Source: Mesorhizobium sp. AR07 (lineage in GTDB: Bacteria > Pseudomonadota > Alphaproteobacteria > Rhizobiales > Rhizobiaceae). From it: a stretch of DNA of 64,000 bases. Under the pieces are notes generated by a model. It saw nothing but the letters and a program-made list of their open reading frames with translations. It was not told where the DNA came from and made no database searches. Both the position numbers and the translations under genes were made by a program. Positions 3,643 through 61,166 of the stretch are shown piece after piece. The stretch spans positions 5,326,501-5,390,500 of the forward strand of contig NZ_CP080525.1 in the NCBI RefSeq assembly GCF_024746815.1. Direction: 5' to 3'. How positions within the stretch are numbered: position 1 is the first letter of the stretch; each line of letters starts with the position of its first letter.

Positions 3643-3743
3643 AGCGGGAGGTTGGTGGTGGACGATCCACTCGCCAACCGGGTCAGGTCCGGAAGGAAGC
3701 AGCCCTAACGAGCCCGGAACGGGTCATTGTTCCAGCCTCCCAC
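3643..3743 (+). ncRNA. ffs: Signal recognition particle RNA, small bacterial (4.5S) type
   Basis: The apical domain is unmistakable: GTCCGGAAGGAAGCAGCC at about 3687-3704 forms the Ffh-binding loop and GGAA tetraloop. The outer arms GCGGGAGGTTGG (from 3644) and CCAGCCTCC (to 3740) pair to close a single long hairpin of about 100 nt. It lies about 100 bp upstream of dnaX, the conserved place for ffs in many proteobacteria. The exact ends are estimated from pairing. This RNA occupies most of the otherwise gene-free 3493-3849 interval. Confidence 0.93.
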
Positions 3744-15625: not shown

Positions 15626-18600
15626 TCAGGCGGCCCCACCTTCCGGCACTGTTTCTCCGTGCACGCCTTCGCTTTCCTGCCCCTCCTTCGGCTCCTTGAT
15701 CCTGAACCACGCCACATAAAGCGCCGGCAGGAACAGCAGCGTGATCGCCGTGCCGGCGATGATGCCGCCCATCATGGCGTATGCCATCGGCGCCCAGAAC
15801 ACCTCGCGCGCGATCGGGATCAGCGCCAGGCTGGCGGCTGCGGCCGTCAGCGCGATCGGCCGCATGCGATGTTCTGTGGCTTCGATCACCGCCGCCCAGC
15901 GGTCCTTGCCTTCGGCGACGAGGTCCTCGATCTGCACGATCAGGATGACCGAGTTGCGGATCAGGATACCGATCAGCGCCAGCACGCCCAAAATGGCGAC
16001 GAAACCGAGCGGCGCACCGCTCGGCAGCAGTGCCGCGACCACGCCGATCAGTCCGAGTGGTGCTACGGCCACGACCAGGAACAGGCGCTGGAAGCTCTGC
16101 AGCTGGATCATCAGGATCGTCGCCATGATGAACAGCATCAGCGGCACCACGGCGGCGATCGGCCCCTGGCTGTTGGCGCTTTCCTCTACCGAGCCGGCCG
16201 TGGCGATGGCGTAGCCGACCGGCAGCTTGGCGATGAAGGCATCGACGGACGGTTTCAGCTCCTTGACCACGGTAGCGGGAAGCGCGTCGCCGACCAACCC
16301 GGCGCGCACGATGATCGTCGGCACGCGGCTGCGCCGCCAGACCGTCGGCTGCTCCAGCTCGTAGTGGAAGTTGGCGACGGCGGCGAGCGGGATGGATTCC
16401 CCGTTGCCGGTCGGCAATTGCATGTTGCGCAGCGTCTCGATCGAGCCGCGCTCAGCCTCACGCGAGCGCACCACGACATTGATGAGATAGGTGGCGTCGC
16501 GGACCTGGGTGATGGTGACGCCGCCGACCACGCTGTTGAGCGCATTGGAAATGTCAGAGGAGGTGACGCCGAGCTGGCGCGCCTTGTCCTGCAGCACGTC
16601 GACTTTCAGCACCCGCGACGGTTCGTTCCAGTCGAAGGTCGGCGCGCCGAGCTTCGGATTGGCCGAGATGACGCCGGCCAGCTGTTGCGACAGTGCGCGC
16701 ACCATCTGGGTGTCGGGGCCGCTGACGCGATACTGCACCGGCCGGCCGACGGGGGGCCCGAGCTCGAGCGTCTTGACGAAGGCATCGGTGCCGACGAAAT
16801 CCTCGCGCAGCATCTTCTCGATGGCCGTCTTGACCCTGTCGCGGGCCTCGACGTTCTTGGTGACGATGATGGTCTGGCCGAAATAGGGATTGGCCGGCTG
16901 CACGTCATAGGCCAGCACGAAGCGCACCGCGCCCTGACCGATATAGGAACTCCAGTGGTCGATATCAGGATTTCCGGCAAGGGCTGCCTTCTCGAAGCGC
17001 TCCATCTGGTCGCGCGTCTCGGCGATCGAAGAGTTCTGCGGCAGGTTCCAGTCGACGATCAGTTCCGGCCGGTCGGAGGACGGGAAGAACTGCTGCTGGA
17101 CAAAGCCCATGCCGACGATCGAGGCGGCGAACAACAGCACCGTCGCGATGATGGTCAGCCAATGGCGGCGCACCGACCCGATGAGCACGCTGCGGAACAG
17201 CGAGGTGAAGCGGCCGGGTTTGTCATGATGCTTCTGTTTCATCGTCGCCGGCAGGATGGTGATGCCGAGCAGCGGCGCAAACAGCACCGCCACGATCCAT
17301 GACACCAGCAGCGACACGGCGATGACGACGAACAGCGTGTAGGTGTATTCGCCGGCGGCGCTGTTGTTGAGGCCGATCGGAATGAAGCCGGTCACCGTCA
17401 CCAGCGTTCCGGTCAGCATCGGGAACGCGGTCGAGGTGTAGACATAGGTCGCCGCCTTGCGCAGTGTGTCGCCTGCCTCAAGTCGTGCCACCATCATCTC
17501 GACGGCGATCATGGCGTCGTCGACCAATAGGCCAAGCGCGATGATCAGCGCGCCCAGCGAAATCCGCTGCAGCGAGATGCCGAGATAGTCCATGAACAGG
17601 AAGGTGATGGCCAGCACCAGCGGGATCGACAGCGCCACCACGAAACCGGCGCGCATGCCGAGGCTGATGAAGGAGACGGCAAGCACGATGGCGACCGCCT
17701 CGAACAAGGCGCGGGTGAAGCCCGAAACCGCTTGCTCGACGATCACCGGCTGGTCGGCGACCAGATGCACGCCGACGCCGATCGGCAGGTCGGCGACGAT
17801 CTTGTCCATCTCGACCTTCAGCGCCTTGCCGAAATCGAGCAGATTGGCGTTGGGCTTCATGCCGATGGCGAGCCCGATCGCATCCTCGCCGTTGAAACGG
17901 AACAATGCCGTCGGCGGATCGACATAGCCGCGCGTGATCGTCGCCACATCGCTCAGCCGGAAGAAGCGGTCGTTGACGCGCAGATTGATGGCGCGCAGGC
18001 TTTCCTCCGAAGTGAACTGGCCCGAGACACGCACGCTGACGCGTTCGGGGCCGGTCTCGATGACGCCCGAGGGTGCAATGGCATTCTGCGCCTGCAGGCT
18101 GGCCACGATCGCTTGCTGGTTCAGGCCAAGCGCCGCGATTTGGCGGGTCGAGAATTCGAGATAGATCGCCTCGTCCTGGGCGCCGATCAGGTCGACCTTG
18201 CCGGCATTGGGCACCGCCAGGATTCTGGTGCGCGCCTCCTCGACATAATCACGCAGCTGGCGCGACGTCAGCCCGTCCGATGTGAAGGCGTAGACATTGC
18301 CATAGACGTCGCCAAAACAGTCGTTGAAGAACGGCCCTTGCACGCCAGCGGGAAACTGCGAGCGGAAGTCGTTGATCATGTTGCGGATGCGCACCCATGT
18401 CGGGGCCACGTCGCGCGCCTTGGTCGACGGCTTCAGGTTGACGAAGACGACGGTCTTGCCAGCCGTGGTGACGGATTTGCTGTAGTCGAGGCTGTCGAGC
18501 TCCTCCAGTTTCTTCTCGATGCGATCGGTCACTTGCCGGACCGTTTCATTGACCGAGGCGCCCGGCCAGTTGGCCTGGATCAGCATGGTCTTGATGGTGA

Positions 18601-22501: not shown

Positions 22502-23696
22502 AGGGGAATCGCATATGAGTAGAATTGGTCTCTTGTGCGATCTGTGGAAATCGATTCTGACGGACCTTCTGACAACAGGAGGTCGCGATGGTGTTTCTGG
22601 ATGTATTCGGCGAGGTTCCGGACCCGCGAGACTTCACGGCGCAGCACCCCTTGCCGGAGGTTTTGTTCGTGGCGTTTGCCGCGGTACTTTGCGGGGCGAC
22701 GCATTGCACGGAAATGGCGTTGTTTGCCAAGAGCCGGCTCGATTTGTTGCAGCAGTTCATCGCGCTCGATCGTGGCGCGCCCAGCCACGACACCTTCAGC
22801 CGCGTGCTGGCGGCAGTCGATCCTGTCGCCCTCAACGATGCCTTCATGCGCTTCATGGCCGCTTTCGGCGAGCGGGCACGCATCGATGTGCCGAAAGGTC
22901 AGGTCGCCATCGACGGCAAGAGCCTCAGGCGCGCCTACGCCAAGGGCTGCTCCCATATGCCACCGCTGGTGGTCACGGTCTTTGGCTGCGACACCTTCAT
23001 GAGCTTGGCCCAGACCGTGGCGCGGGAGGGCGGCGAGGTGCAGGCCGCGATCGCGGCGCTCGAGCTGTTGTCGCTCAAGGGGTTGACCGTCACCGCCGAC
23101 GCCTTGCACTGCCATCGCCGCATGACCAAGACCGTGCGCGACGGCGGCGGCCACTACGTGATCGCCATCAAAGGCAACCAGTCGAAACTGGTCAACGAAG
23201 CCAGCGCCGTACTCGACAAGGCGGCGGCGAGCAAAGCGACCAGGTTCCATCAGACCCAAGAGGATGCGCATGGTCGTCACGAGGTACGGCGTGCCTTCGT
23301 CGTTCCCTTCGCCCAGACACCAGGCAAGAATGCACTCGTCGACCTTTGCGCCGTCGGCCGTGTCGAAAGCTGGCGCACCGTCGAGGGCAAGACCACACAC
23401 AAGGTTCGCTGCTATGCGCTGTCGCGCAAAATGCCGGCACAGGAACTGCTCGCCACAGTACGTCGCCACTGGAGCATCGAGAATGACCTGCACTGGCAAC
23501 TCGACGTCCTGCTCGGCGAAGATCAGATCAGAGGGCGCAAGAACAACACAGCCGCCAACCACGCTATACTTCGACGCCTCACGCTCAATGTTCTCAGAGC
23601 CGATCCCGAAAACATTCCTCTCAGCCACAAACGACTCAAAGCTCGATGGGCCGATCAAGACCTGCTCAGCCTCTTCACTCATATGCGATAGCCCTA
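22502..23696 (+). mobile_element. ISAs1-family insertion sequence
   Basis: A complete element of about 1.2 kb. Its ends carry imperfect inverted repeats of about 18 bp: AGGGGAATCGCATATGAG at 22502-22519 and the complement of CTCATATGCGATAGCCCT at 23678-23695. It holds one transposase gene and is flanked by an 11-bp direct repeat (CCCTTGTGGGG at 22491-22501 and 23697-23707), near the 8-10 bp usual for this family. Because the flanks are themselves part of a palindrome, the exact boundary is uncertain by one to three bases. The element looks intact. Confidence 0.85.
22588..23691 (+). CDS. ISAs1-family transposase
   Basis: A 367-residue DDE transposase that would move the surrounding element. 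Family features are an N-terminal DVFGEVPDPRD, the first Asp in VAIDGKSLRRA, VTADALHCHRRM with the second Asp, the YVIAIKGNQ strand, and the Glu in HWSIENDLHWQLDVLL, followed by NHAILRRLTLNVLR. The frame is intact and the length is normal for the family. AGGAGGT is eight bases upstream of ATG 22588. The C-terminus runs into the right inverted repeat. Base composition is close to that of the host. Confidence 0.94.
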   Translation: MVFLDVFGEVPDPRDFTAQHPLPEVLFVAFAAVLCGATHCTEMALFAKSRLDLLQQFIALDRGAPSHDTFSRVLAAVDPVALNDAFMRFMAAFGERARIDVPKGQVAIDGKSLRRAYAKGCSHMPPLVVTVFGCDTFMSLAQTVAREGGEVQAAIAALELLSLKGLTVTADALHCHRRMTKTVRDGGGHYVIAIKGNQSKLVNEASAVLDKAAASKATRFHQTQEDAHGRHEVRRAFVVPFAQTPGKNALVDLCAVGRVESWRTVEGKTTHKVRCYALSRKMPAQELLATVRRHWSIENDLHWQLDVLLGEDQIRGRKNNTAANHAILRRLTLNVLRADPENIPLSHKRLKARWADQDLLSLFTHMR

Positions 23697-23801: not shown

Positions 23802-25055
23802 CTAACCCGCGGCGCGGGCAGGCTCGGCTTGCTGGAAAGCGGCCAGCGCCGCTTTCAGGCCCTCGGGGCCAGCCGCGATCGTCTGCGGCGTCGGCGAGAA
23901 GCCGGCCCCGAGCATCTTGCGGCCAAGCATGTGGTCGCCGGGGCGGTTGACCGATTCGATACCCAGCAGCCGGTCGCCGGCATAGTGGTAGATCGAAAAC
24001 TTGTTGTCGGGTAGGTCGCCCAGCACGACATGGCTGTCGCCGCCTGATGTCAGGCCGACCATCTGCAGCTTCATGTCGCCGATGTCGGACCAGAACCACG
24101 GCACCGCCGAATAGGCGTCGGCGTGGCCGGTGATCGTACGTGCGGCAAGCCGCGCCTGGTCGGTGGCGTTCTGCACCGATTCTAGCCGCACGTCGCCGCC
24201 GGTGAACCAGTGCCGGTAAGAGGCAGCGTCGCCGATGGCGAGAATATCAGGCACCGAACTGCGCATCTGGTGATCGACGCGGATGCCGTTGGCGACGGTG
24301 AGACCGGCTTCTTGAGCCAGTTCGACATTCGGCACGGCGCCGATGCCGACGATGACCACGCGCGCCGGCAACTTTTCGCCTGACGAGGTGATCGCGGCCA
24401 CCACATGGCCGTTTTCGCCTTCCAGCCTAGCAATGCTGGTGCCGGTGAGGATGCGCACGCCAGTCGCTTCCAGCCTTTGCCGGACATGGCTCGCCACGAC
24501 AGGTGCCACGGCGCGGCCGAGCAGCCGGTCGACCGCTTCGACCACAGTCACCGTACGGCCGGCCGCCCGCAGCGTGGCGGCGATCTCCAGCCCGATGAAG
24601 CCGCCGCCGAGGATGACGATTTCGTCGCTTTGCGCGCTCAGTGCGCGGATCAGCCGTGCATCGGCCAGCGAGCGCAGCGACAGAACGCCGGACAGATCAG
24701 AGCCTGGCAGCGGGAGGACGCGCGGCCGCGACCCGGTCGCCAGGATCAGATGATCGAAGGCAAGCGCGCCGCCGCCTGATATCTCCAGGCTGCGACGGCC
24801 GGCATCGATACGCTCGATCCGAATGCCCGGCCGATAGTCGATGGCGCTGCCGGTGTAAAAGGCCTCGCCGCGCAGCGGCTGCGGTTTGGCCTCGGCATCC
24901 TTGATGAAGGTCTTCGACAGGGGCGGCTTGTGGTAAGGCAGCTCGTTCTCGTCACTGATGAGGATCACCGGCCCGTCATAGCCGTCCTCGCGCAGACTGG
25001 CGGCCGCTTGCACGCCCGCATGACCCGCACCGACAATGACCACGCCGTTCTTCAT
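23802..25055 (-). CDS. Ferredoxin/rubredoxin reductase-like FAD/NAD-dependent oxidoreductase
   Basis: A 417-residue flavoprotein that would move electrons from NAD(P)H to a ferredoxin-type partner. The FAD-binding VIVGAGHAGVQAA is at about residues 5-17, the NAD-binding VILGGGFIGLEIA near 147, and ILAIGDAA near 270, followed by a Reductase_C domain (VPWFWSDIGDMKLQMVG). This is the layout of aromatic-dioxygenase and P450-type ferredoxin reductases. ATG 25055 gives a clean start (MKNGVVIVG). It is divergent from the iron operon, and the shared 450-bp gap holds an Irr box, so iron control of this gene is possible but unproven. A Bfd ferredoxin encoded 1.8 kb away is a conceivable partner. Confidence 0.88.
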   Translation of the reverse strand: MKNGVVIVGAGHAGVQAAASLREDGYDGPVILISDENELPYHKPPLSKTFIKDAEAKPQPLRGEAFYTGSAIDYRPGIRIERIDAGRRSLEISGGGALAFDHLILATGSRPRVLPLPGSDLSGVLSLRSLADARLIRALSAQSDEIVILGGGFIGLEIAATLRAAGRTVTVVEAVDRLLGRAVAPVVASHVRQRLEATGVRILTGTSIARLEGENGHVVAAITSSGEKLPARVVIVGIGAVPNVELAQEAGLTVANGIRVDHQMRSSVPDILAIGDAASYRHWFTGGDVRLESVQNATDQARLAARTITGHADAYSAVPWFWSDIGDMKLQMVGLTSGGDSHVVLGDLPDNKFSIYHYAGDRLLGIESVNRPGDHMLGRKMLGAGFSPTPQTIAAGPEGLKAALAAFQQAEPARAAG

Positions 25056-25205
25056 CGCATTCCAATCCCGTTTCGAGTCTAGGATGTCTCGCCAAGTGGC
25101 GATTGTCTGGCGCCGCCGCAAGAAAGCTTTTGCGGGTCGCACCCGGAATGGCGGCTGTCAATCGGACAGTTCAGCGGCAAGACCGGTGCAGGCTGGTGCA
25201 TAAAG

Positions 25206-25211
25206 TTGACA
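25206..25211 (+). promoter_or_regulatory. Candidate -35 hexamer next to the Irr box
   Basis: A perfect TTGACA lies seven bases upstream of the Irr box and points towards the imelysin operon. With usual spacing the -10 region would fall inside the box, although no good TATAAT match is present there, so this is a weak promoter call. Irr bound here would cover the -10 region. Confidence 0.4.
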
Positions 25212-25217
25212 TTCGTA

Positions 25218-25236
25218 GTTTAGAATAGTTCTAAAC
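25218..25236. promoter_or_regulatory. Irr box (iron control element, ICE)
   Basis: The sequence GTTTAGAATAGTTCTAAAC is a perfect palindrome around a three-base centre and matches the published Irr consensus TTTAGAA-N3-TTCTAAA at every fixed base. Irr acts in Rhizobiales when iron or haem is low, repressing iron-storage and haem genes and activating some uptake genes. The box lies 270 bp upstream of the first imelysin gene and 163 bp upstream of the divergent reductase. I saw no second copy in the window. The content of the downstream operon, including bfr and bfd, fits an Irr target. Confidence 0.85.
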
Positions 25237-25366
25237 TGTTGTTTCAATTGATTTTTCTTGCCAATCTCCATTGACATCCGGCGATGTCGAAGCTTTATGG
25301 AGGCTCGCGCATTGGCGCATCCCTTTGATGTCTGGGCCTTGAACCCTTTCGATTGGAGGCATTTCG

Positions 25367-25492
25367 GTGTCTGTCTTCCGCAAACCACGCCGTGTCGTGG
25401 CTGTTTTTTTGCCCGATGGCATGTGCCTGGCTGACTTGGCGCAGGTCGCCTGTTGCCGCGCCTTTGGCGCCCCTGTTTCAGTGAATTCCTGA
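25367..25492 (+). CDS. Possible 41-codon leader ORF ahead of the imelysin operon
   Basis: A GTG-initiated frame of 41 codons with GGAGG seven bases upstream. The product would be VSVFRKPRRVVAVFLPDGMC followed by a Cys/Ala-rich end, with no similarity I recognise. Its TGA stop overlaps the GAGGAG ribosome-binding site of the imelysin gene, as expected for a coupled leader peptide. A terminator-like hairpin lies inside it. It could equally be chance: it is short, and no homologues were checked. Confidence 0.3.
   Translation: MSVFRKPRRVVAVFLPDGMCLADLAQVACCRAFGAPVSVNS
25385..25410 (+). terminator. Terminator-like hairpin in the leader of the iron operon
   Basis: The stem CCACG / CGTGG (25385-25389 with 25396-25400) encloses a six-base loop and is followed after three bases by seven consecutive T residues (25404-25410). 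This looks like an intrinsic terminator but lies about 95 bp upstream of the first structural gene and downstream of the Irr box, so it may act as an attenuator. The stem is short, so its efficiency is uncertain. Confidence 0.45.
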
Positions 25493-25505
25493 GGAGATGA
25501 CAGTC

Positions 25506-26807
25506 ATGAGAGCGATGATGACAGCACGGTATGGCGGCAGGCTTGCGGCGGTCGGCGCCACGGCCCTGCTGACGGCGGCGGTGTTCGTGCTGCCTGCCAA
25601 GGCGCAAACCGATGCCAAGGCGGTCATCAAGACCTACGCCGATATCGGGCTCGCCAAATATGGGGATACGCTGACCACGGCGCAGGCCCTCGACAAGGCG
25701 GTCGATGCCCTGCTCGCTACGCCCTCGGCGGAAACGCTCAATGCCGCGCGCGACGCCTGGAAGGCGGCGCGTGTTTTCTATCCGCAAACCGAAGTCTATC
25801 GGTTCGGCAACAAGATCGTCGACGACTGGGAAGGCGAGGTGAATTCCTGGCCGTTGGACGAAGGCCTGATCGACTATGTCGCCAAGAGCTACGGCACCGA
25901 ATCGGATGCGAATGCGCTCTATACGGCCAATGTGATCGCCAACAAGGAGATCGAGATCAACGGCAAGAAGGTCGATGCCACCAACCTGACGCCGGAATTT
26001 CTCTCCGGCACGCTGCAGCAAGCCGGCGGTATCGAGGCCAATGTCGCCACCGGCTATCACGCCATCGAGTTCCTGCTCTGGGGCCAGGACCTGCACGGCA
26101 CCGGTCCGGGCGCTGGCGAGCGCCCCTACACCGACTACGACCTCAAGAACTGTACCGGCGGCAATTGCGACCGCCGTGCCCAGTATCTGAAGTCGGCGAG
26201 CGACCTTCTGGTCTCCGACCTGCAGAAGATGGTCAACGACTGGAAGGACGACGGCGCTGCCCGCAAGAACCTCGTCGATGGCGAACCGAACACCGCCATC
26301 TCGATCATCTTCACCGGCATGGGCTCGCTGTCCTATGGCGAACTGGCCGGTGAGCGTATGAAGCTCGGCCTGCTGCTGCATGATCCGGAAGAGGAGCAGG
26401 ACTGCTTCTCCGACAACACCTACAACTCGCATCTCTATGACGCCATCGGCATCCGCTCTGCCTATCACGCCAACTACACCAGGCTTGACGGCACCGTCGT
26501 TTCGGGGCCTTCGGTGGCCGATATGGTGAAGGCCGCCGATCCGGCGATCGACAAGGAACTGTCGGACAAGCTCGATGTCAGTGTCGCCAAGATGGAGGCG
26601 ATCAAGGCGCGGGCGCTGGCCGGCGAGGCCTATGACCAGCAGATCGCCGAGGGCGACACGCAAGGCAATGCCGCCGTGCAGGCGGCGATCGACGCACTGA
26701 TCGACCAGACCAAGTCGATCGAACGCGCCGTAGACACGCTGAAGCTCAATGCCATCGCCTTCGAGGGTTCCGACAGTCTCGACGCGCCGGACAAGGTGTT
26801 CAAGTAA
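25506..26807 (+). CDS. irpA: Imelysin-family iron-regulated periplasmic protein (IrpA-like)
   Basis: A 433-residue exported protein with a signal peptide (LAAVGATALLTAAVFVLPAKA, cleavage near residue 33) and a peptidase M75/imelysin domain. The family GxHxxE motif is intact as GYHAIEFLLWGQD at about residues 183-195. Imelysins are all-helical two-bundle proteins thought to bind iron or take part in its uptake; a protease role is doubtful. ATG 25506 is chosen because GAGGAG ends nine bases upstream; ATG 25497 is too close to it. It is the first structural gene behind the Irr box, with bfd starting 84 bp downstream. Confidence 0.92.
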   Translation: MRAMMTARYGGRLAAVGATALLTAAVFVLPAKAQTDAKAVIKTYADIGLAKYGDTLTTAQALDKAVDALLATPSAETLNAARDAWKAARVFYPQTEVYRFGNKIVDDWEGEVNSWPLDEGLIDYVAKSYGTESDANALYTANVIANKEIEINGKKVDATNLTPEFLSGTLQQAGGIEANVATGYHAIEFLLWGQDLHGTGPGAGERPYTDYDLKNCTGGNCDRRAQYLKSASDLLVSDLQKMVNDWKDDGAARKNLVDGEPNTAISIIFTGMGSLSYGELAGERMKLGLLLHDPEEEQDCFSDNTYNSHLYDAIGIRSAYHANYTRLDGTVVSGPSVADMVKAADPAIDKELSDKLDVSVAKMEAIKARALAGEAYDQQIAEGDTQGNAAVQAAIDALIDQTKSIERAVDTLKLNAIAFEGSDSLDAPDKVFK

Positions 26808-26891
26808 GGGTCGAAAGCCTGGAGCCTGGGGCTCCAGCAAGACATCAAGCCACACGGCGCGGGAGGCGCCGTCAGCCATCCGAGCAAATGA

Positions 26892-27203
26892 ATGCTGATC
26901 TGCCATTGCAACATCATCACCGAGAGGGAAATCGAGCAGACGATCATCGGGCTGCTGGACCAGGATCCCTGGCAGCTGATCGTGCCGGCCAAGGTCTATC
27001 ATGCCATGCAGAAGCGCGGTCGCTGTTGCGGGTGCTTCCCAAATGTGGTCGAAACGATCATTCGGGTCACCGAAAATTACCACGCCCGTTCGGAGGCGAG
27101 CGGCGTGGATATCGTTTCACACCTGGATCGCGTCAGAGGCCTGCGCGTCCAATACGGGAGCAGAACCCATGAAAGGCGAAAAGCAGATCATCGAGCGGCT
27201 TAA
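26892..27203 (+). CDS. bfd: Bacterioferritin-associated ferredoxin (Bfd-like), C-terminally extended
   Basis: Bfd binds bacterioferritin and feeds electrons to its haem so that stored Fe(III) is released as Fe(II). The 103-residue product has the four cluster ligands Cys4, Cys6, Cys45 and Cys48 (MLICHC and RCCGCFPNV), a [2Fe-2S] pattern of Bfd type. Classical Bfd is about 64 residues. The last 35 or so residues here are basic and not family-like, and their codons overlap the start of bfr by 35 bases in another frame. The ribosome-binding site is weak, so expression may depend on coupling. Confidence 0.88.
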
Positions 27204-27654
27204 CGAGGCTCTTTTTCTGGAGCTTGGCGCCGTCAATCAGTATTGGGTGCATTTCCGCCTGCTGGAGGATTGGGGATACGCCAAGCTGGCAAAGAAGGAG
27301 CGGGCGGAATCGATCGAGGAGATGCACCATGCCGACCGGCTCGTGGCCCGCATCATCTTCCTTGAAGGCCATCCCAACCTGCAATCCGTGGCGCCGCTGC
27401 GCATCGGCCAGAACGTCAAGGAAGTGCTCGAATCCGACCTTGCCGGCGAATATGACGCGCGTACCGCCTACAAGCGCTCGCGTGAGATCTGCGAGGAAGC
27501 GGGCGATTACGTGACGATGAAGCTGTTCGAGGAATTGCTGGCTGACGAGGAAGGTCACATCGACTTCCTCGAGACGCAGCTCGACCTGCTTGCTTCGATC
27601 GGCGAGGAAAAATACGGCCAGCTCAACGCCGCATCGGCGGACGAGGCGGACTAA
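27169..27654 (+). CDS. bfr: Bacterioferritin
   Basis: A 161-residue subunit of the 24-mer haem-containing iron-storage shell. All ferroxidase ligands are in their standard positions (Glu18, Glu51, His54, Glu94, Glu127, His130), and Met52, the axial ligand of the inter-subunit haem, is present in EEMHHADR. The start [15 protein letters not shown] is canonical. ATG 27169 lies within the 3-prime end of bfd, which implies tight co-expression with its partner ferredoxin. In other rhizobia bfr is a known type of Irr target, in keeping with the Irr box at 25218. Confidence 0.97.
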
Positions 27655-27666
27655 GGACATGCGGGA

Positions 27667-29268
27667 ATGCGGCGCCTGCTAGACTTCTTGCGCCGCTTGC
27701 GGCGAGCCAACGGCTCGCCGCCCCTCCAGAAAACGCCAGTCGGATTGGCGCAGAGGTGCTTTGTCATCCTCGCGGTGGCGCTCTCCTCTTCCGCGATGGC
27801 CGGAGACCTTCAGCCCGGCGCTTTCGCCACCACGCGTTCCGACCTCAACCCGAAGGATCAGGCGCGCGTCACCGCCATCACCAGGCCGACGTCGGATTTC
27901 TCCAGGCCCGAGCCGTTCGAACTGATGCAAGGTGGTGCCGGCACGTCCAGGAAGGACGTCAGCCGCGATTCCTTCTTGCAATCCTCGGCCAACATCACAT
28001 TCGAGGAGGAGGGCACCTTCAAGCTCGGCAACGCCCTTTTTCGCAAGAACTGGGTGTCGTCGCCCTCCTCGACACAGGCTTCGGACGGGCTTGGGCCGCT
28101 GTTCAACGAACGCGCCTGCCAGAACTGCCATCTGAAGGACGGCCGCGGCCGTCCGCCGCAAGGTGACGCCGGCACCACCTCGATGTTCCTGCGGCTGGCC
28201 CGCGACGCCAGCACCGCGGAAGAGAAAGCAGCACTTGCCGACCACCGGGTGCTCAACTTCCCCGACCCGGTCTACGGCACGCAATTGCAGGAACTGGCCG
28301 TGCCCGGCCTGCGCGGCGAAGGCAGGATGCATGTCGACTATCAGGAACGACAGATGACGCTGGCGGACGGCGCCGTGATTTCGCTACGCAAGCCGAGCTA
28401 CTCGGTCGTCGATCCTGCCTATGGCCCGCTTGATCCGCGCACCACGCTGTCGCCGCGCCTGACGCCACCGATGATCGGCCTTGGCTTGATCGAAGAGATC
28501 GCGCCGGCGGATATCCTTGGCCATGCCGATCCGGACGACAGCAACGGCGACGGCATTTCCGGCAGGCCCAACATCGTGCGCGACGGCCAGAGCGGAGAGC
28601 TGACGCTTGGCCGTTTCGGCTGGAAGGCGCAGACCGCGTCGATCCGCCAGCAGGCAGCGGATGCCTTTGCCGGCGACATCGGCATCTCGACGCCGGAAGA
28701 GCCGAAACATTGGGGCGATTGCACTGCGGCGCAGACAAAATGCCTGGCCATGCCGAATGGCGTGCAGCAGCGCCTCGGTCCGGTCGAGGCGCCGCCGCCG
28801 GTGATGGATCTGGTCACCTTCTATTCGCGCAACCTGGCCGTGCCGGCGCGCCGCGACCTCGACCGGCTAGATGTGCTTGCCGGCAAGAAAATCTTCTATG
28901 AGATCGGCTGCATCGCCTGTCACACGCCGAAATTCGTCACCCGTCGCGACACGCCCAACAAGGCGCAGGCCTTCCAGCTGATCTGGCCGTACTCCGACTT
29001 CCTGCTGCACGACATGGGGCCTGACCTGGCTGATGGCCAGGCCGTGGGCGAGGCGACGGGCAATGAATGGCGCACCCCGCCACTGTGGGGCATCGGCCTC
29101 ACCGAAACCGTCAACGGCAATTCTTTTTTCCTGCATGATGGGCGGGCGCGCACCCTGACCGAGGCGATCCTGTGGCATGGCGGCGAGGCGCGGAAAGCGC
29201 GCGACCGCTTTGCCGCCGCCAGCGCCGCCGACCGCGATGCACTGCTCAAATTCCTGGAGTCACTGTGA
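27667..29268 (+). CDS. Di-haem thiol oxidoreductase-like protein (DUF1111)
   Basis: A 533-residue exported c-type cytochrome with two haem-binding motifs, CQNCH (about 151-155) and CIACH (about 415-419), in a DUF1111 frame related to di-haem peroxidases. Other family stretches are FTEEG-like TFEEEGTFKLGNALF, DGLGPLFNERACQNCH and FLLHDMGPDLADG. It is predicted to be periplasmic (signal FVILAVALSSSAMAG). The start is uncertain: ATG 27667 has AAGGA nine bases upstream but gives a 30-residue basic lead, while TTG 27745 would give a shorter signal. A 10-bp perfect palindrome (27699-27721) lies in that lead. It overlaps the next imelysin gene by one base. Confidence 0.88.
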   Translation: MRRLLDFLRRLRRANGSPPLQKTPVGLAQRCFVILAVALSSSAMAGDLQPGAFATTRSDLNPKDQARVTAITRPTSDFSRPEPFELMQGGAGTSRKDVSRDSFLQSSANITFEEEGTFKLGNALFRKNWVSSPSSTQASDGLGPLFNERACQNCHLKDGRGRPPQGDAGTTSMFLRLARDASTAEEKAALADHRVLNFPDPVYGTQLQELAVPGLRGEGRMHVDYQERQMTLADGAVISLRKPSYSVVDPAYGPLDPRTTLSPRLTPPMIGLGLIEEIAPADILGHADPDDSNGDGISGRPNIVRDGQSGELTLGRFGWKAQTASIRQQAADAFAGDIGISTPEEPKHWGDCTAAQTKCLAMPNGVQQRLGPVEAPPPVMDLVTFYSRNLAVPARRDLDRLDVLAGKKIFYEIGCIACHTPKFVTRRDTPNKAQAFQLIWPYSDFLLHDMGPDLADGQAVGEATGNEWRTPPLWGIGLTETVNGNSFFLHDGRARTLTEAILWHGGEARKARDRFAAASAADRDALLKFLESL

Positions 29269-30347
29269 TGCTGAAGCGTTCCGTACTGGTTCTTGTTCTG
29301 CCGCTGGCTTTGCTGTGCGCCGTCCCGGCGTCGGCGGCGGTGAAGGCCTCCGAAATCATCCAGCGGGCGATCGACGGCTTTGTCCGCCCGGCCTATGCCA
29401 GCCTGCACGACCATGCGGAAATCTTGACGAAAGCGATGCACAGGCTGTGCGAAGCGCCCTCGCAGGGGGAGCTCGATGCCGCGCGTGCCGAATTTTCGGC
29501 GACGGTCTATGCCTGGTCGTCGGCCGAAATCATCGGGTTCGGGCCGATCAAGGAGAACAACCGCCTGGAGCGCATGCTGTTCTGGCCGGATCGCAAGAGC
29601 ATCGGGCTGAAACAGGTGCAGGCGGCTCTGTCGGACAAGGATCCGACCGCCACCGATCCGGCACAGCTGGCCGGCAAGAGCGTTGCCATGCAAGGGCTGG
29701 GCGCACTGGAATTCGTTCTGTACGGCGATGGCGCCGAGGCGCTGAGCGGCAAAGCCGAGCCCTATCGCTGCGCCTACGGCGCGGCGGTTGCCGGCAACAT
29801 CGAAACGATGGCTGGCGATGTCAGCGCCGCGTGGAACAAACCGGACGGCTTCGCCGCGCTTTGGGCCAATCCGGGGCCGCAAAACGCGCTTTACCGCGAC
29901 GGCAACGAAGCCGTGACTGAACTGGTCGGCGTCTTCATCAACGAACTGGAGATGGTACGCGATGTCCGCCTGAAGGGCTTTTTCGGCGGCAAGCCGGGAG
30001 CCGACAAGCCAAGACAGGCAATCTACTGGCGTTCGCAAAACACCACCAATTCGCTGGCCGGCAATCTGTCGGGGATAGACGCGCTGTTCCAGGCCTCGAG
30101 GCTCGGCGATGCCCTGCCGCCCGATGCGCGCTGGATGGCGCAATCGATCCATATCCAGCTGGTCAATGGCGTCGCCACCGCCAAGGCGGTCAGCGGTCCG
30201 ATCGACAAGGCGCTTGTCGATCCGGCACTGCGTGAAAAGCTCGATCACCTCGCGCTCATTACCTCCAGCCTGTCGACCCTGATCGGCACCAGGCTGACTG
30301 CCGAATTCGGCCTGACCGCCGGCTTTTCGTCGCTGGATGGGGACTGA
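29268..30347 (+). CDS. Second imelysin-family protein, degenerate GxHxxE motif
   Basis: A 359-residue exported protein with a clear signal peptide (LVLVLPLALLCAVPASA, cleavage near residue 23) and an imelysin domain only distantly like that of the first gene. At the motif position it reads GLGALEFVLYG, so the His of GxHxxE is replaced by Gly while the Glu stays. The same pairing of a canonical and a His-less imelysin around a DUF1111 gene is known in other proteobacteria. Its ATG overlaps the DUF1111 stop (TGATG), and the DUF1513 gene follows within 9 bp, so all three are coupled. Confidence 0.88.
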   Translation: MLKRSVLVLVLPLALLCAVPASAAVKASEIIQRAIDGFVRPAYASLHDHAEILTKAMHRLCEAPSQGELDAARAEFSATVYAWSSAEIIGFGPIKENNRLERMLFWPDRKSIGLKQVQAALSDKDPTATDPAQLAGKSVAMQGLGALEFVLYGDGAEALSGKAEPYRCAYGAAVAGNIETMAGDVSAAWNKPDGFAALWANPGPQNALYRDGNEAVTELVGVFINELEMVRDVRLKGFFGGKPGADKPRQAIYWRSQNTTNSLAGNLSGIDALFQASRLGDALPPDARWMAQSIHIQLVNGVATAKAVSGPIDKALVDPALREKLDHLALITSSLSTLIGTRLTAEFGLTAGFSSLDGD

Positions 30348-30355
30348 ACTTGAAG

Positions 30356-31456
30356 ATGCCGCTCATCGATCGTCGCGATTTCCTCAGGGCCGCCGGCGTT
30401 GGCTATGCTGCCGCCATAGTGCCATCGGCCTGGGCGAGCACGCTTGCGGCCGACGCCGTCTTCGCCACCGCCTTCGTCAAGCGCGACGGCAGCTATGGCG
30501 CCGCCGTCCTGTCCGAGGCCGGCAAGCTCCTGCATGCGATCGACCTGCCCGACCGTGGCCATGACGTCACCTACGATCCGGTGTCGAAGCGTTCGGTGGT
30601 CTTCGCCCGCCAGCCCGGCACCTTCGCCGTGGTCTTCGATCATTCAGGCCGTGACGCACCGCTGACCATCGCCAGCATCGGCGGCCGGCATTTCTTCGGC
30701 CACGGCGTGTTTTCCCCCGACGGGGCGCTGCTCTACGCCACCGAGAACGACTTCGACAATGCCGCCGGCGTGGTCGGCATCTATGACGCGCGGGCGAAAT
30801 TCAGCCGCGTCGGTGAATTCCCGACCCATGGCATGGGTCCGCACGAGCTTCTGCTGCTTGGCGACGGCAGGACGATCGCGGTCGCCAATGGCGGCATCGA
30901 GACCCATCCGGACTACGGCCGCGCCGAGCTCAACATCGCCACCATGAAGCCGTCCTACGTGCTGATCGATCGCGTCACCGGCGACCTCATCGAGAGGCAC
31001 GAATTGCCGGCATCGCTGCACCAGCTGTCGATCCGTCACATGGATACCGATCGGTCCGGCACGGTCTGGTTCGGCTGCCAGTACCGCGGGCCGGGCACCG
31101 ATCGTCCGCTGCTGGTCGGCCGCGCCGCGCGCGGCAAGGATTTGCAACTGCTCGACATGCCGCAGGACGTGCTGTCCGGCTTTCGCAACTACATCGGTTC
31201 GGTCGCGGCCAATCCGCTTGTCGGCACCGTCGCCGTCTCTTCACCGGAAGGCAATTCGCTTGTCGTGATCGATGCGGTGAGCGGCCAGGTCGTCTCGAAC
31301 AGCGCGCTGGTCGCGGTTTGCGGCGTGGCGCCCGACGGAGCCGGCTTCATGGCGACGACGGGCGCCGGCGAGATCATCGACGGCAGCGGTGCGACACGCT
31401 CCGAACCGGACTATGTCTGGGACAACCACATGCTGCGCATCGAACAGGCCGCATAG
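30356..31456 (+). CDS. DUF1513 protein, Tat-exported, beta-propeller-like
   Basis: A 366-residue protein with a twin-arginine signal (DRRDFLRAAGVGYAAAIVPS), so it is probably folded, perhaps with a cofactor, before export. The body shows repeated beta-propeller-like blades such as HDVTYDPVSKRSVVFARQPG and FGHGVFSPDGALLYATEND. DUF1513 genes habitually sit next to imelysin and DUF1111 genes; no biochemical role is established that I know of. ATG 30356 follows GGGGA; TTG 30350 is an alternative. It is the last gene of the iron operon, and I see no clear terminator before tsaB, 110 bp on. Confidence 0.85.
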   Translation: MPLIDRRDFLRAAGVGYAAAIVPSAWASTLAADAVFATAFVKRDGSYGAAVLSEAGKLLHAIDLPDRGHDVTYDPVSKRSVVFARQPGTFAVVFDHSGRDAPLTIASIGGRHFFGHGVFSPDGALLYATENDFDNAAGVVGIYDARAKFSRVGEFPTHGMGPHELLLLGDGRTIAVANGGIETHPDYGRAELNIATMKPSYVLIDRVTGDLIERHELPASLHQLSIRHMDTDRSGTVWFGCQYRGPGTDRPLLVGRAARGKDLQLLDMPQDVLSGFRNYIGSVAANPLVGTVAVSSPEGNSLVVIDAVSGQVVSNSALVAVCGVAPDGAGFMATTGAGEIIDGSGATRSEPDYVWDNHMLRIEQAA

Positions 31457-60734: not shown

Positions 60735-61166
60735 ATGGACCTGGACGGCCGGAAGGAAAATGTCGCTGTGGACAAGCGGGTTCGTGAAGCCGGCCTGAGG
60801 CCGACGCGCCAGCGCATTGCGCTGGCCGACCTGCTTTTCGCCAAGGGCGACCGTCATCTGTCGGCCGAGGAACTGCACGAGGAGGCGGTCGCCGCCGGTG
60901 TGCCGGTGTCGCTCGCCACCGTCTACAATGCCCTTCACCAGTTCACCCAGGCGGGACTGCTGCGCATCCTCGCCGTCGAGGGTTCCAAGACCTACTTCGA
61001 CACCAACACGTCCGATCACCACCATTTCTACATCGAAGGCGAAAACCGCATATTCGACATCGCCAGCGGTCCGGTGACGGTTGCCAACCTGCCGGAGCCG
61101 CCGGAGGGGATGGAGATCGCCAATGTCGACATCGTGGTGAGGCTGCGCCCCAAACGCCGCGAATGA
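60735..61166 (+). CDS. irr: Iron response regulator Irr (Fur superfamily)
   Basis: A 143-residue Fur-family regulator that is active when haem or iron is low. The winged-helix region reads RVREAGLRPTRQRIALADLL, then SLATVYNALHQFTQAGLLR for recognition. The rhizobial Irr hallmark is the three-His stretch TSDHHHFYIEGENRIFDI, where ordinary Fur has HHDH. The Bradyrhizobium haem motif GCPWH is absent, as in Rhizobium-type Irr. ATG 60735 is likely; GTG 60699 would add 12 residues. Its operator type (ICE) is present at 25218-25236 in this window. Confidence 0.94.
   Translation: MDLDGRKENVAVDKRVREAGLRPTRQRIALADLLFAKGDRHLSAEELHEEAVAAGVPVSLATVYNALHQFTQAGLLRILAVEGSKTYFDTNTSDHHHFYIEGENRIFDIASGPVTVANLPEPPEGMEIANVDIVVRLRPKRRE

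Follow-up and report, generated by a model that had tools for sequence, protein, structure and literature searches.

The gene set most like the one studied here is known from Rhodobacter sphaeroides, in which hemP-irpA-bfd-bfr, RSP_1545, RSP_1544 and RSP_1543 are probably co-transcribed, as judged by differential RNA sequencing (dRNA-seq), under the control of IscR (PMC4618611). RSP_1545 is described in the same paper as a 'thiol oxidoreductase with 2 cytochrome c heme-binding sites', while irpA (RSP_1548) is elsewhere called an imelysin and, together with bfd, predicted to be under IscR (PMC4344238). In wild-type cells under iron limitation irpA is induced 4.05-fold, bfd 2.71-fold and bfr 1.99-fold (PMC3413700). 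Judging from order and description, RSP_1544 would be a second imelysin and RSP_1543 a DUF1513 protein. In this paper we compare with that operon a locus of Mesorhizobium sp. AR07, a soil bacterium that fixes nitrogen, found in a window (the whole stretch of DNA analysed) of 64 kb on the 6.66-Mb contig of the 8.73-Mb genome. There, a perfect Irr box (iron control element, ICE) is followed on one strand by imelysin 1, Bfd, bacterioferritin (Bfr), a di-haem oxidoreductase (DHOR/DUF1111), imelysin 2 and a DUF1513 protein. The two operons are alike in the order of imelysin, bfd, bfr and di-haem genes, and the R. sphaeroides operon is iron-responsive. They differ in that the R. sphaeroides operon is headed by hemP and by an Iron-Rhodo-box bound by IscR, whereas here we find the Irr box and a conserved leader element, our main subject.

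A similar set is annotated on a plasmid of Phaeobacter sp. G2 (CP104104), in the order HemP-peptidase-porin-Bfd-Bfr-cytochrome-imelysin-DUF1513, where the peptidase is an imelysin by position; this plasmid differs in having HemP and a porin, and has neither an Irr box (at up to 3 mismatches) nor the leader element as searched with our model R1. Pseudomonas aeruginosa PA4370-PA4373 and Vibrio VC1264-1266 likewise encode two imelysin-like proteins, the first with the motif GxHxxE and the second with GxxxxE; in Pseudomonas a DUF1111-type protein lies between them, as here, and these operons are Fur-regulated by iron (PMC3143127). They differ from the present operon in that bacterioferritin is mentioned nowhere in the paper. 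An initial annotation of the window had proposed an undescribed system. For the gene set this fails, since the R. sphaeroides order and the annotated Phaeobacter plasmid already show it, in R. sphaeroides as a set induced by iron limitation and repressed by IscR (PMC4618611, PMC3413700). We describe below a Rhizobiaceae version of this known iron operon, present genus-wide in Mesorhizobium, and a strongly conserved leader element that is new here and apparently undescribed. The features of the control region and of the six genes, in window positions, are these:

25206-25211, +: TTGACA, the −35-like site of a putative promoter P1, for which a 17-nt spacer would make the right half of the Irr box the −10
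25219-25235, +: Irr box (ICE), perfect palindrome TTTAGAATAGTTCTAAA, 0 mismatches
25271-25276, +: TTGACA, −35 of a second putative promoter P2, at a conserved spacing to the box
25293-25298, +: CTTTAT, −10-like site of P2
25301-25374, +: leader element, 84.7 bits with model R1
25307-25318, +: variable 5' leader hairpin, GCGC-ATTG-GCGC
25322-25361, +: near-invariant leader core, predicted hairpin CUUUGAU..GGG..CCC..AUUGGAG
25355-25359, +: Shine-Dalgarno (SD) sequence GGAGG, in the 3' arm of the predicted core hairpin
25367-25492, +: leader open reading frame (ORF), GTG start, 41 codons
25497-26807, +: imelysin 1, GxHxxE, IcmP-like, signal peptide by eye
26892-27203, +: Bfd-like [2Fe-2S] protein
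27169-27654, +: bacterioferritin, ATG at 27169
27667-29268, +: di-haem oxidoreductase DHOR/DUF1111, two CxxCH, signal peptide by eye
29268-30347, +: imelysin 2, GxxxxE type, its ATG overlapping the DHOR stop in TGATG, signal peptide by eye
30356-31456, +: DUF1513 protein with the twin-arginine translocation (Tat) motif RRDFLR, ATG at 30356 or possibly TTG at 30350

Our analysis agrees with the initial annotation as to the perfect box and the six genes on one strand, Bfd lying below its Pfam cut-off. Most of the junctions are, as it had stated, overlapping or very close (+84, −35, +12, −1 and +2 to +8 nt, in order, with starts read by hand). Small corrections concern the starts of bfr (ATG 27169), imelysin 2 (ATG 29268) and DUF1513 (TTG 30350 or ATG 30356), and the leader of about 260 nt between box and imelysin 1 had been overlooked.

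The Irr box is the only match with at most 2 mismatches in the window, and 100 shuffles gave none. The genome holds two perfect copies, this one included; the other is at L003 (G000:C1:4418357-4418373). Two features expected of an Irr regulon are present, namely an ICE TTTAGAANNNTTCTAAA upstream and an Irr gene in the genome, which lies in the same window:

60735-61166, +: irrA, the regulator expected to bind the box (NF045678, 223 bits against a cut-off of 150)

We found two Fur-family proteins in the genome: IrrA, and one closest to Zur that falls below the Zur model's cut-off.

For comparison we use the loci around DUF1513 genes, 182 of them, plus 40 from other genera of the family; some Mesorhizobium loci are counted twice in these sets. 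The initial annotation had put forward the joint occurrence of the six genes and the box as a check. The box is perfect in all 97 Mesorhizobium loci with imelysin 1 (some genomes counted twice) and present with at most 2 mismatches in 15/15 other family loci with bfr, as against 5/27 without it (p 1.6e-7, a contrast that stems mostly from one clade and not from independent events). Outside the family the corresponding counts are 0/2 with bfr and 4/72 without. Nine loci without imelysin 1 were dropped from these counts, and 2000 random sequences of 1150 nt contained no box at the same threshold.

The spacing between the box and P2 is conserved as well. In a scan of the region 28-40 nt past the box, covering 106 distinct loci that have both bfd and a box (L143 and L256 lack the box), TTGA[CT] begins 31-36 nt past the box in 104, from several genera, and 34-36 nt past it in 99. 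We see the like in the 30 loci retrieved with the RNA model, in contexts that include bfd-bfr and the CYF genes described below: TTGAC stands 34-36 nt past the box (0-3 mismatches) in 30/30, and most have CTTTAT or a relative of it 16-17 nt farther on. The box centre would thereby lie at about −78 from the presumed P2 start, a position where activators act. Directly 3' of the box (25236-25250) we also observe a conserved TATTGTTTCAATTG/TATTGATTT, possibly a site for integration host factor (IHF) or another protein; an IHF site is plausible by eye only.

Between P2 and imelysin 1 lies the leader element. An alignment of 90 distinct Mesorhizobium leaders contains one block more conserved than its flanks, and its core, CCTTTGATGTCTGGGCCTTGAACCCTTTCGATTGGAGGCA, is found with at most 5 mismatches in 106 of the 112 loci that have both bfd and bfr. 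Among 97 scanned loci lacking bfd and bfr (9 more were left out), a single one has a match with fewer than 13 mismatches (L062, with 9). Model R1 gives no second copy in the window up to E=1 nor in the genome up to E=0.1. It matches 103 of 247 family genomes at E<=0.1 and 72 at E<1e-5, 11 of the latter with two copies. In the order 71/297 genomes match at E<=0.01, and in the class 3/289 at E<=1e-3, one being the genome of the window and two weak. A search of 84 DUF1513 loci (4 from the family, 80 from elsewhere) yields three matches, L057, L062 and, weakly, L258. Locus L057 also carries a second, weaker core match at 16994-17027, about 1.8 kb from the first and on the same strand.

The element is not confined to imelysin operons. 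It occurs in genomes without a DUF1513 match (G632 and G648, for example), directly heads bfd-bfr in L329, L334 and L338 (no imelysin in the 1.5 kb examined), and heads a CYF gene in L327, L328, L333, L340, L341, L344 and L345. On plasmids none was found at blastn sensitivity. The 4227 Rfam families give no match on the element's own strand, the below-threshold matches being on the minus strand (25368-25449), and our literature search on leaders, riboswitches and upstream ORFs showed nothing on this element among the papers listed. Two other readings of the leader were tried and rejected. The first was hemP or a conserved small protein: by eye there is no HemP-like ORF in 25200-25500, the stretch of the window scanned has no HemP motif, and the small-protein reading of the core was dropped because stops or indels interrupt its frame in L055, L140, L279 and L303 (by eye). 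The second was an intrinsic terminator; a hairpin after 25383 recurs but its U-run does not (by eye).

That the element may act as RNA is suggested by its place downstream of a −10-like site and by the SD sequence and start codon at its end. An ATG or GTG stands 4-8 nt after GATTGGAG or variants of it in 30/30 loci, and a start codon 5-8 nt after GGAGG in 89/89 distinct Mesorhizobium loci that contain the core string; we dropped two loci in which the string is not exact. In the window this start codon opens the leader ORF, whose stop precedes the four candidate imelysin ATGs (25497, 25506, 25515, 25518) by 4 nt for the first and by 25 nt for the last. Where the leader ORF is out of frame with the gene, its stop is no more than 20 nt from the gene start, as defined by its SD, in 11/17 loci, compared with 3/17 for a control frame; this test includes the window copy and sets aside 8 loci in which no start bears an SD, as well as 5 in which the ORF is in the gene's frame. 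At the bfd loci L329 and L338 the leader stop overlaps with the sole gene start nearby, which lacks an SD of its own. Within Mesorhizobium the leader frame runs open into imelysin in 52 of the 55 loci with an anchorable start (34 are not anchorable), so that imelysin may actually start at the GTG there. The sequence of the leader peptide is poorly conserved.

The reading that we favour, and to which we give an even chance of being right, is that Irr activates P2 at low iron and that a hairpin gates translation of the combined iron operon. At the first level, apo-Irr (low haem, low iron) on the box some 78 bp upstream of the presumed P2 start would activate P2. At the second, the P2 transcript would begin with the small variable hairpin, followed by the near-invariant element of about 40 nt with the SD sequence in its predicted stem. 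Ribosomes entering at this SD would translate the leader ORF, which ends close to where the first gene starts or continues into it; opening of the hairpin would therefore gate translation of the operon. As for the products, the exported half (imelysin 1, the di-haem enzyme, imelysin 2 and the Tat-exported DUF1513 protein) may bind periplasmic iron and change its redox state, while the cytoplasmic half (Bfd and Bfr) may load and drain stored iron, probably fed by a divergently encoded reductase. The novelty of this scheme would lie in the RNA gating. What the sequences show directly is the gene content and its recurrence, the geometry of box and promoter, and the conservation of the element and its placement with respect to SD and start codon; the rest of the scheme, from activation and transcription start to protein functions and electron flow, is inferred.

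A number of our own observations and one published statement weigh against this reading, and we set them out here with the rival explanations that they favour. According to a review, Irr activates or represses according to box position, activation being common, and represses bfr in Rhizobiales at low iron (PMC7762939). Moreover, 87 of the 106 distinct loci have a second TTGA[CT] that starts exactly 13 nt upstream of the box, an arrangement that puts the box over the −10 of a conserved P1. Irr might accordingly be a repressor that covers this −10 at low iron, the operon being made in iron-replete cells for storage or detoxification and P2 serving as a basal promoter; we regard this as possible, if somewhat doubtful. 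P1 is missing in 19 of the 106 loci, with no such site within 20 nt of the box, and it is missing by eye in the bfd and CYF contexts of L328, L329, L334, L338, L341 and L345, where box and P2 spacing are kept. The sequence TTCTAA, besides, is a poor −10. Induction of the R. sphaeroides counterpart by iron limitation (PMC3413700) is a further point that we count in favour of low-iron activation. Since the P2 spacing is the universal feature, we lean to activation of P2 by Irr at low iron.

The box also occurs near bfr without the leader element in Sinorhizobium sojae (0 mismatches), Shinella (1) and S. meliloti (2), so that box and element are separable. R1 found nothing at the bfr loci of S. 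meliloti Ak57, Rhizobium NLR16a, Shinella PSBB067 and S. sojae. In S. sojae (L352, 3910-3926) the perfect box lies about 70 nt before bfr, in a different layout.

The second half of the favoured reading requires that the core fold. The 30 sequences of alignment A2 share a predicted common hairpin in which the GGAG of the SD sequence is paired; 99.7% of 399 cells pair, compared with 25-74% in slid controls. An extra apical pair takes five forms (UG, UA, AU, CG, GU), and with it the covariation score exceeds that of every one of 500 shuffles, which as a control take no account of relatedness. The 5' hairpin varies in its letters and often keeps its stem (mean z −1.45 over 30 loci against mononucleotide shuffles; z >= +0.5 in 4 of the 30). 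However, the extra apical pair is unpaired in 19/40 rows, that of the window included, and covariation is thin, most core pairs being invariant or showing one-sided changes in one to three rows. The core does not fold clearly better than its shuffles (mean z −0.7), nor does the leader of the window (z +0.95 for 68 nt and +0.07 for 198 nt). Instead of a folding switch, the core might be an extended site of ribosome entry, or a stretch that is bound in single-stranded form by a protein or a small RNA (sRNA). The weak thermodynamic support and the invariance of most pairs speak for this, as does the extension of invariant letters past the stems; yet the changes that do occur mostly keep pairing (in A2, columns 28-59 with UG/CG/UA, 29-58 with UG/CG, 30-57 with GU/AU and 31-56 with AU/GU), columns 35-49 of alignment A3 show five pair types, and GGAG sits in the 3' arm in 28 of the 30 aligned rows (the exceptions are L303, GAAG, and L057, GGAT). 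We therefore take a core that does not fold to be a tenable account, though one we doubt. For hairpin gating, the coupling test within Mesorhizobium is non-discriminating too, since the control frame ends within 25 nt of the anchor in 57/107 cases.

Tentatively, and expecting that it may well need revision, we propose a wider claim: that in Hyphomicrobiales the element defines a new family of leader RNAs which act in cis within the Irr regulon. Its members would have a box at a fixed distance upstream, a promoter, a variable hairpin and an SD-holding core hairpin, and through the latter a signal linked to iron or haem would gate the translation of bfd-bfr, imelysin and CYF operons. At many loci the arrangement might also be a promoter switch, in which Irr blocks P1 and drives P2, and iron decides which leader is made.

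We turn now to whether the cytoplasmic and exported proteins belong together. DUF1513 is present in 36/37 genomes of the genus (that of the window included; the one miss is a 3.3-Mb assembly), in 47/61 relatives overall and in 159/247 family genomes. In the class it is found in 48/289 (45 over the family cut-off), and in the phylum in 60/299 (55 over the cut-off). All six genes stand in the order seen here in 96 of the 182 loci, the window included, and in 15 of the 40 from other genera of the family; two of these 40 lack imelysin 1. Of 74 loci outside the family that have imelysin 1, two carry bfr within the cluster: L256 (family f48) and L143 (no DHOR match). A lack of recurrence of the bfd-bfr insertion had been named beforehand as a refuting result, and the insertion does recur. 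On an imelysin 1 tree made by a quick method from 125 rows, 26 of them bearing bfr, the bfr label changes four times, at least three of the changes being forced by starred branches. The bfr rows fall into a main group containing all Mesorhizobium rows used, plus L299, L256 and L143; the imelysin 1 of L143 is short and on a long branch, its placement unsure. Two Mesorhizobium loci, L049 and L082, are without most or all of bfr and keep bfd, Irr box and leader core.

A reductase gene diverges from the operon:

23802-25055, −: NAD(P)H:ferredoxin reductase-like gene, PF07992 (Pyr_redox_2) 229 bits, PF14759 (Reductase_C) 82 bits

Its ORF opens at 25142, and the ATG of MKNGVVIV lies at 25055 by hand count. 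It is present in 100/112 loci with bfr and in 2/100 without (mostly one genus, with some genomes counted twice), the two being the Mesorhizobium loci that lost bfr. Among 38 family loci with imelysin 1 outside Mesorhizobium it occurs in 7/15 with bfr vs 0/23 without (Fisher p 5e-4, uncorrected for descent). This co-occurrence fits one iron pathway, and the reductase is a candidate electron donor to Bfd. An ISAs1-family transposase lies close to the reductase gene, at 22588-23691; elsewhere in the window is a bacterial small signal recognition particle (SRP) RNA (RF00169), at 3647-3743.

It is conceivable that bfd-bfr shares only a promoter with the exported proteins and no common pathway. In line with this, 72 of the 74 imelysin clusters outside the family have no bfr, bfr-bearing operons belong mostly to one clade, and bfd-bfr lies elsewhere in Sinorhizobium; in S. 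meliloti Ak57 it is apart from the imelysin cluster, with the element at neither, which also counts against our own reading. We nonetheless consider mere promoter sharing unlikely, given the same insertion in Rhodobacterales (L256, Phaeobacter G2 and R. sphaeroides), L299 and L143, with at least three changes forced, and given iron or redox genes in the slot or just before the di-haem gene in six loci. We examined eight wide-gap loci for the contents of this slot. A multicopper oxidase lies between imelysin 1 and DHOR, in place of bfd-bfr, in L197, L209, L214, L270 and L272, which supports an iron-redox role; L053 has ApbE before DHOR, L057 has Bfd alone, and in the wide gap of L175 nothing convincing was found. 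The single iron pathway of the initial annotation is thus supported by the recurrence of bfd-bfr and by the reductase, a support that does not extend to the direction of Irr control, the transport step or co-transcription in Mesorhizobium.

The same multicopper oxidases could also mean that the exported module serves copper or the repair of oxidative damage, and not iron; a Leptospira imelysin-cytochrome-imelysin set, for its part, is induced by peroxide as well as by iron limitation (PMC7567364). The Irr box, Bfr, the induction by iron limitation in both Rhodobacter and Leptospira and the Fur regulation of the Pseudomonas operon (PMC3143127) all point to iron, and we judge this rival quite improbable.

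The identities of the proteins rest on profile scores of 290 bits for imelysin 1 (PF09375), 113 for Ferritin, 323 for DHOR (PF06537), 166 for imelysin 2 and 359 for DUF1513. Bfr also matches TIGR00754 (179 bits) and has E18, E51, M52, H54, E94, E127 and H130 (hand count in the translation), which we take to be the ferroxidase residues and the haem-binding Met52. The weakest assignment, and a further point against the favoured reading, is Bfd, with 15 bits to PF04324 against a cut-off of 26. Its cysteines (Cys 4, 6, 45 and 48) form CxC...CxxC with a spacing of 38, the usual pattern being CxC-x31/32-CxxC, and comparison with solved structures gave no meaningful match. For DHOR the same comparison gave one weak match (E 0.09); its best named relatives are from Mesorhizobium (M. 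sophorae 93%, M. kowhaii 91%). Imelysin 1 has its GxHxxE motif as GYHAIE at residue 186 and scores 398 bits to 7xrx, whereas imelysin 2 has GLGALE, the GxxxxE type without His, as in the IPPA/PA4372 imelysin-like family. A genome-wide family search gives one Bfr and two imelysins (2 PF09375 matches).

CYF is our label for a Cys/His-rich protein of about 170 aa with no Pfam or NCBIfam match, found in 60/247 family genomes. In many of these it adjoins the imelysin cluster, or sits under an Irr box (0-3 mismatches) and leader element; further CYF loci are L054, L056, L057, L062, L281, L283 and L299. It was not found in the four Mesorhizobium genomes examined for it, nor on plasmids. In L328, L341 and L345 the box (2-3 mismatches) and element are followed by CYF and then by an ORF for a solute-binding protein (Pfam SBP_bac_11 in L345), presumably a sulfate-binding protein by its looks, so that a link to iron-sulfur metabolism is possible.

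Proteins of the imelysin and di-haem DUF1111 types occur widely and are regulated by iron, but the structural paper of 2011 (PMC3143127) left their substrate unclear, and our search of later literature on it found nothing; nor did we find literature on DUF1513. Operons that tie them to Bfd-Bfr, to a ferredoxin reductase or to a multicopper oxidase give concrete genetic tests. If the conserved unit of Irr box and leader works as we propose, it would give haem-sensing iron control a further layer, at translation, in a group that includes nitrogen-fixing symbionts and pathogens, and box position might serve as a rule separating Irr-activated from Irr-repressed genes. Rodionov et al. (2006) may already list parts of this regulon, and we do not claim that the operon is absent from print.

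Comparison with other known systems places these results in context. EfeUOB resembles the present operon in combining an imelysin-type domain with an exported haem enzyme that acts with iron. It differs in that here the genome has only two imelysins and the haem enzyme is a di-haem DHOR; in the operon we found neither an EfeO with a cupredoxin domain nor an FTR1 permease, nor any other permease. As for the leader, the alpha-proteobacterial serC-type leader is likewise a short hairpin, whose 3' arm holds the ribosome-binding site, beside a putative transcription start (PMC1273637), but it precedes other genes, and the present element has no Rfam match. The CruR/DUF2946 upstream ORF, which controls a copper operon post-transcriptionally (PMC9426467), is similar as an upstream ORF of a metal operon, whereas the leader peptide in the window has neither CXXC nor the C-terminal RAPP motif. 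Relative to all of these, the known part of the locus is its gene set, and the new part is a conserved leader module, apparently undescribed, at a fixed distance from an Irr box.

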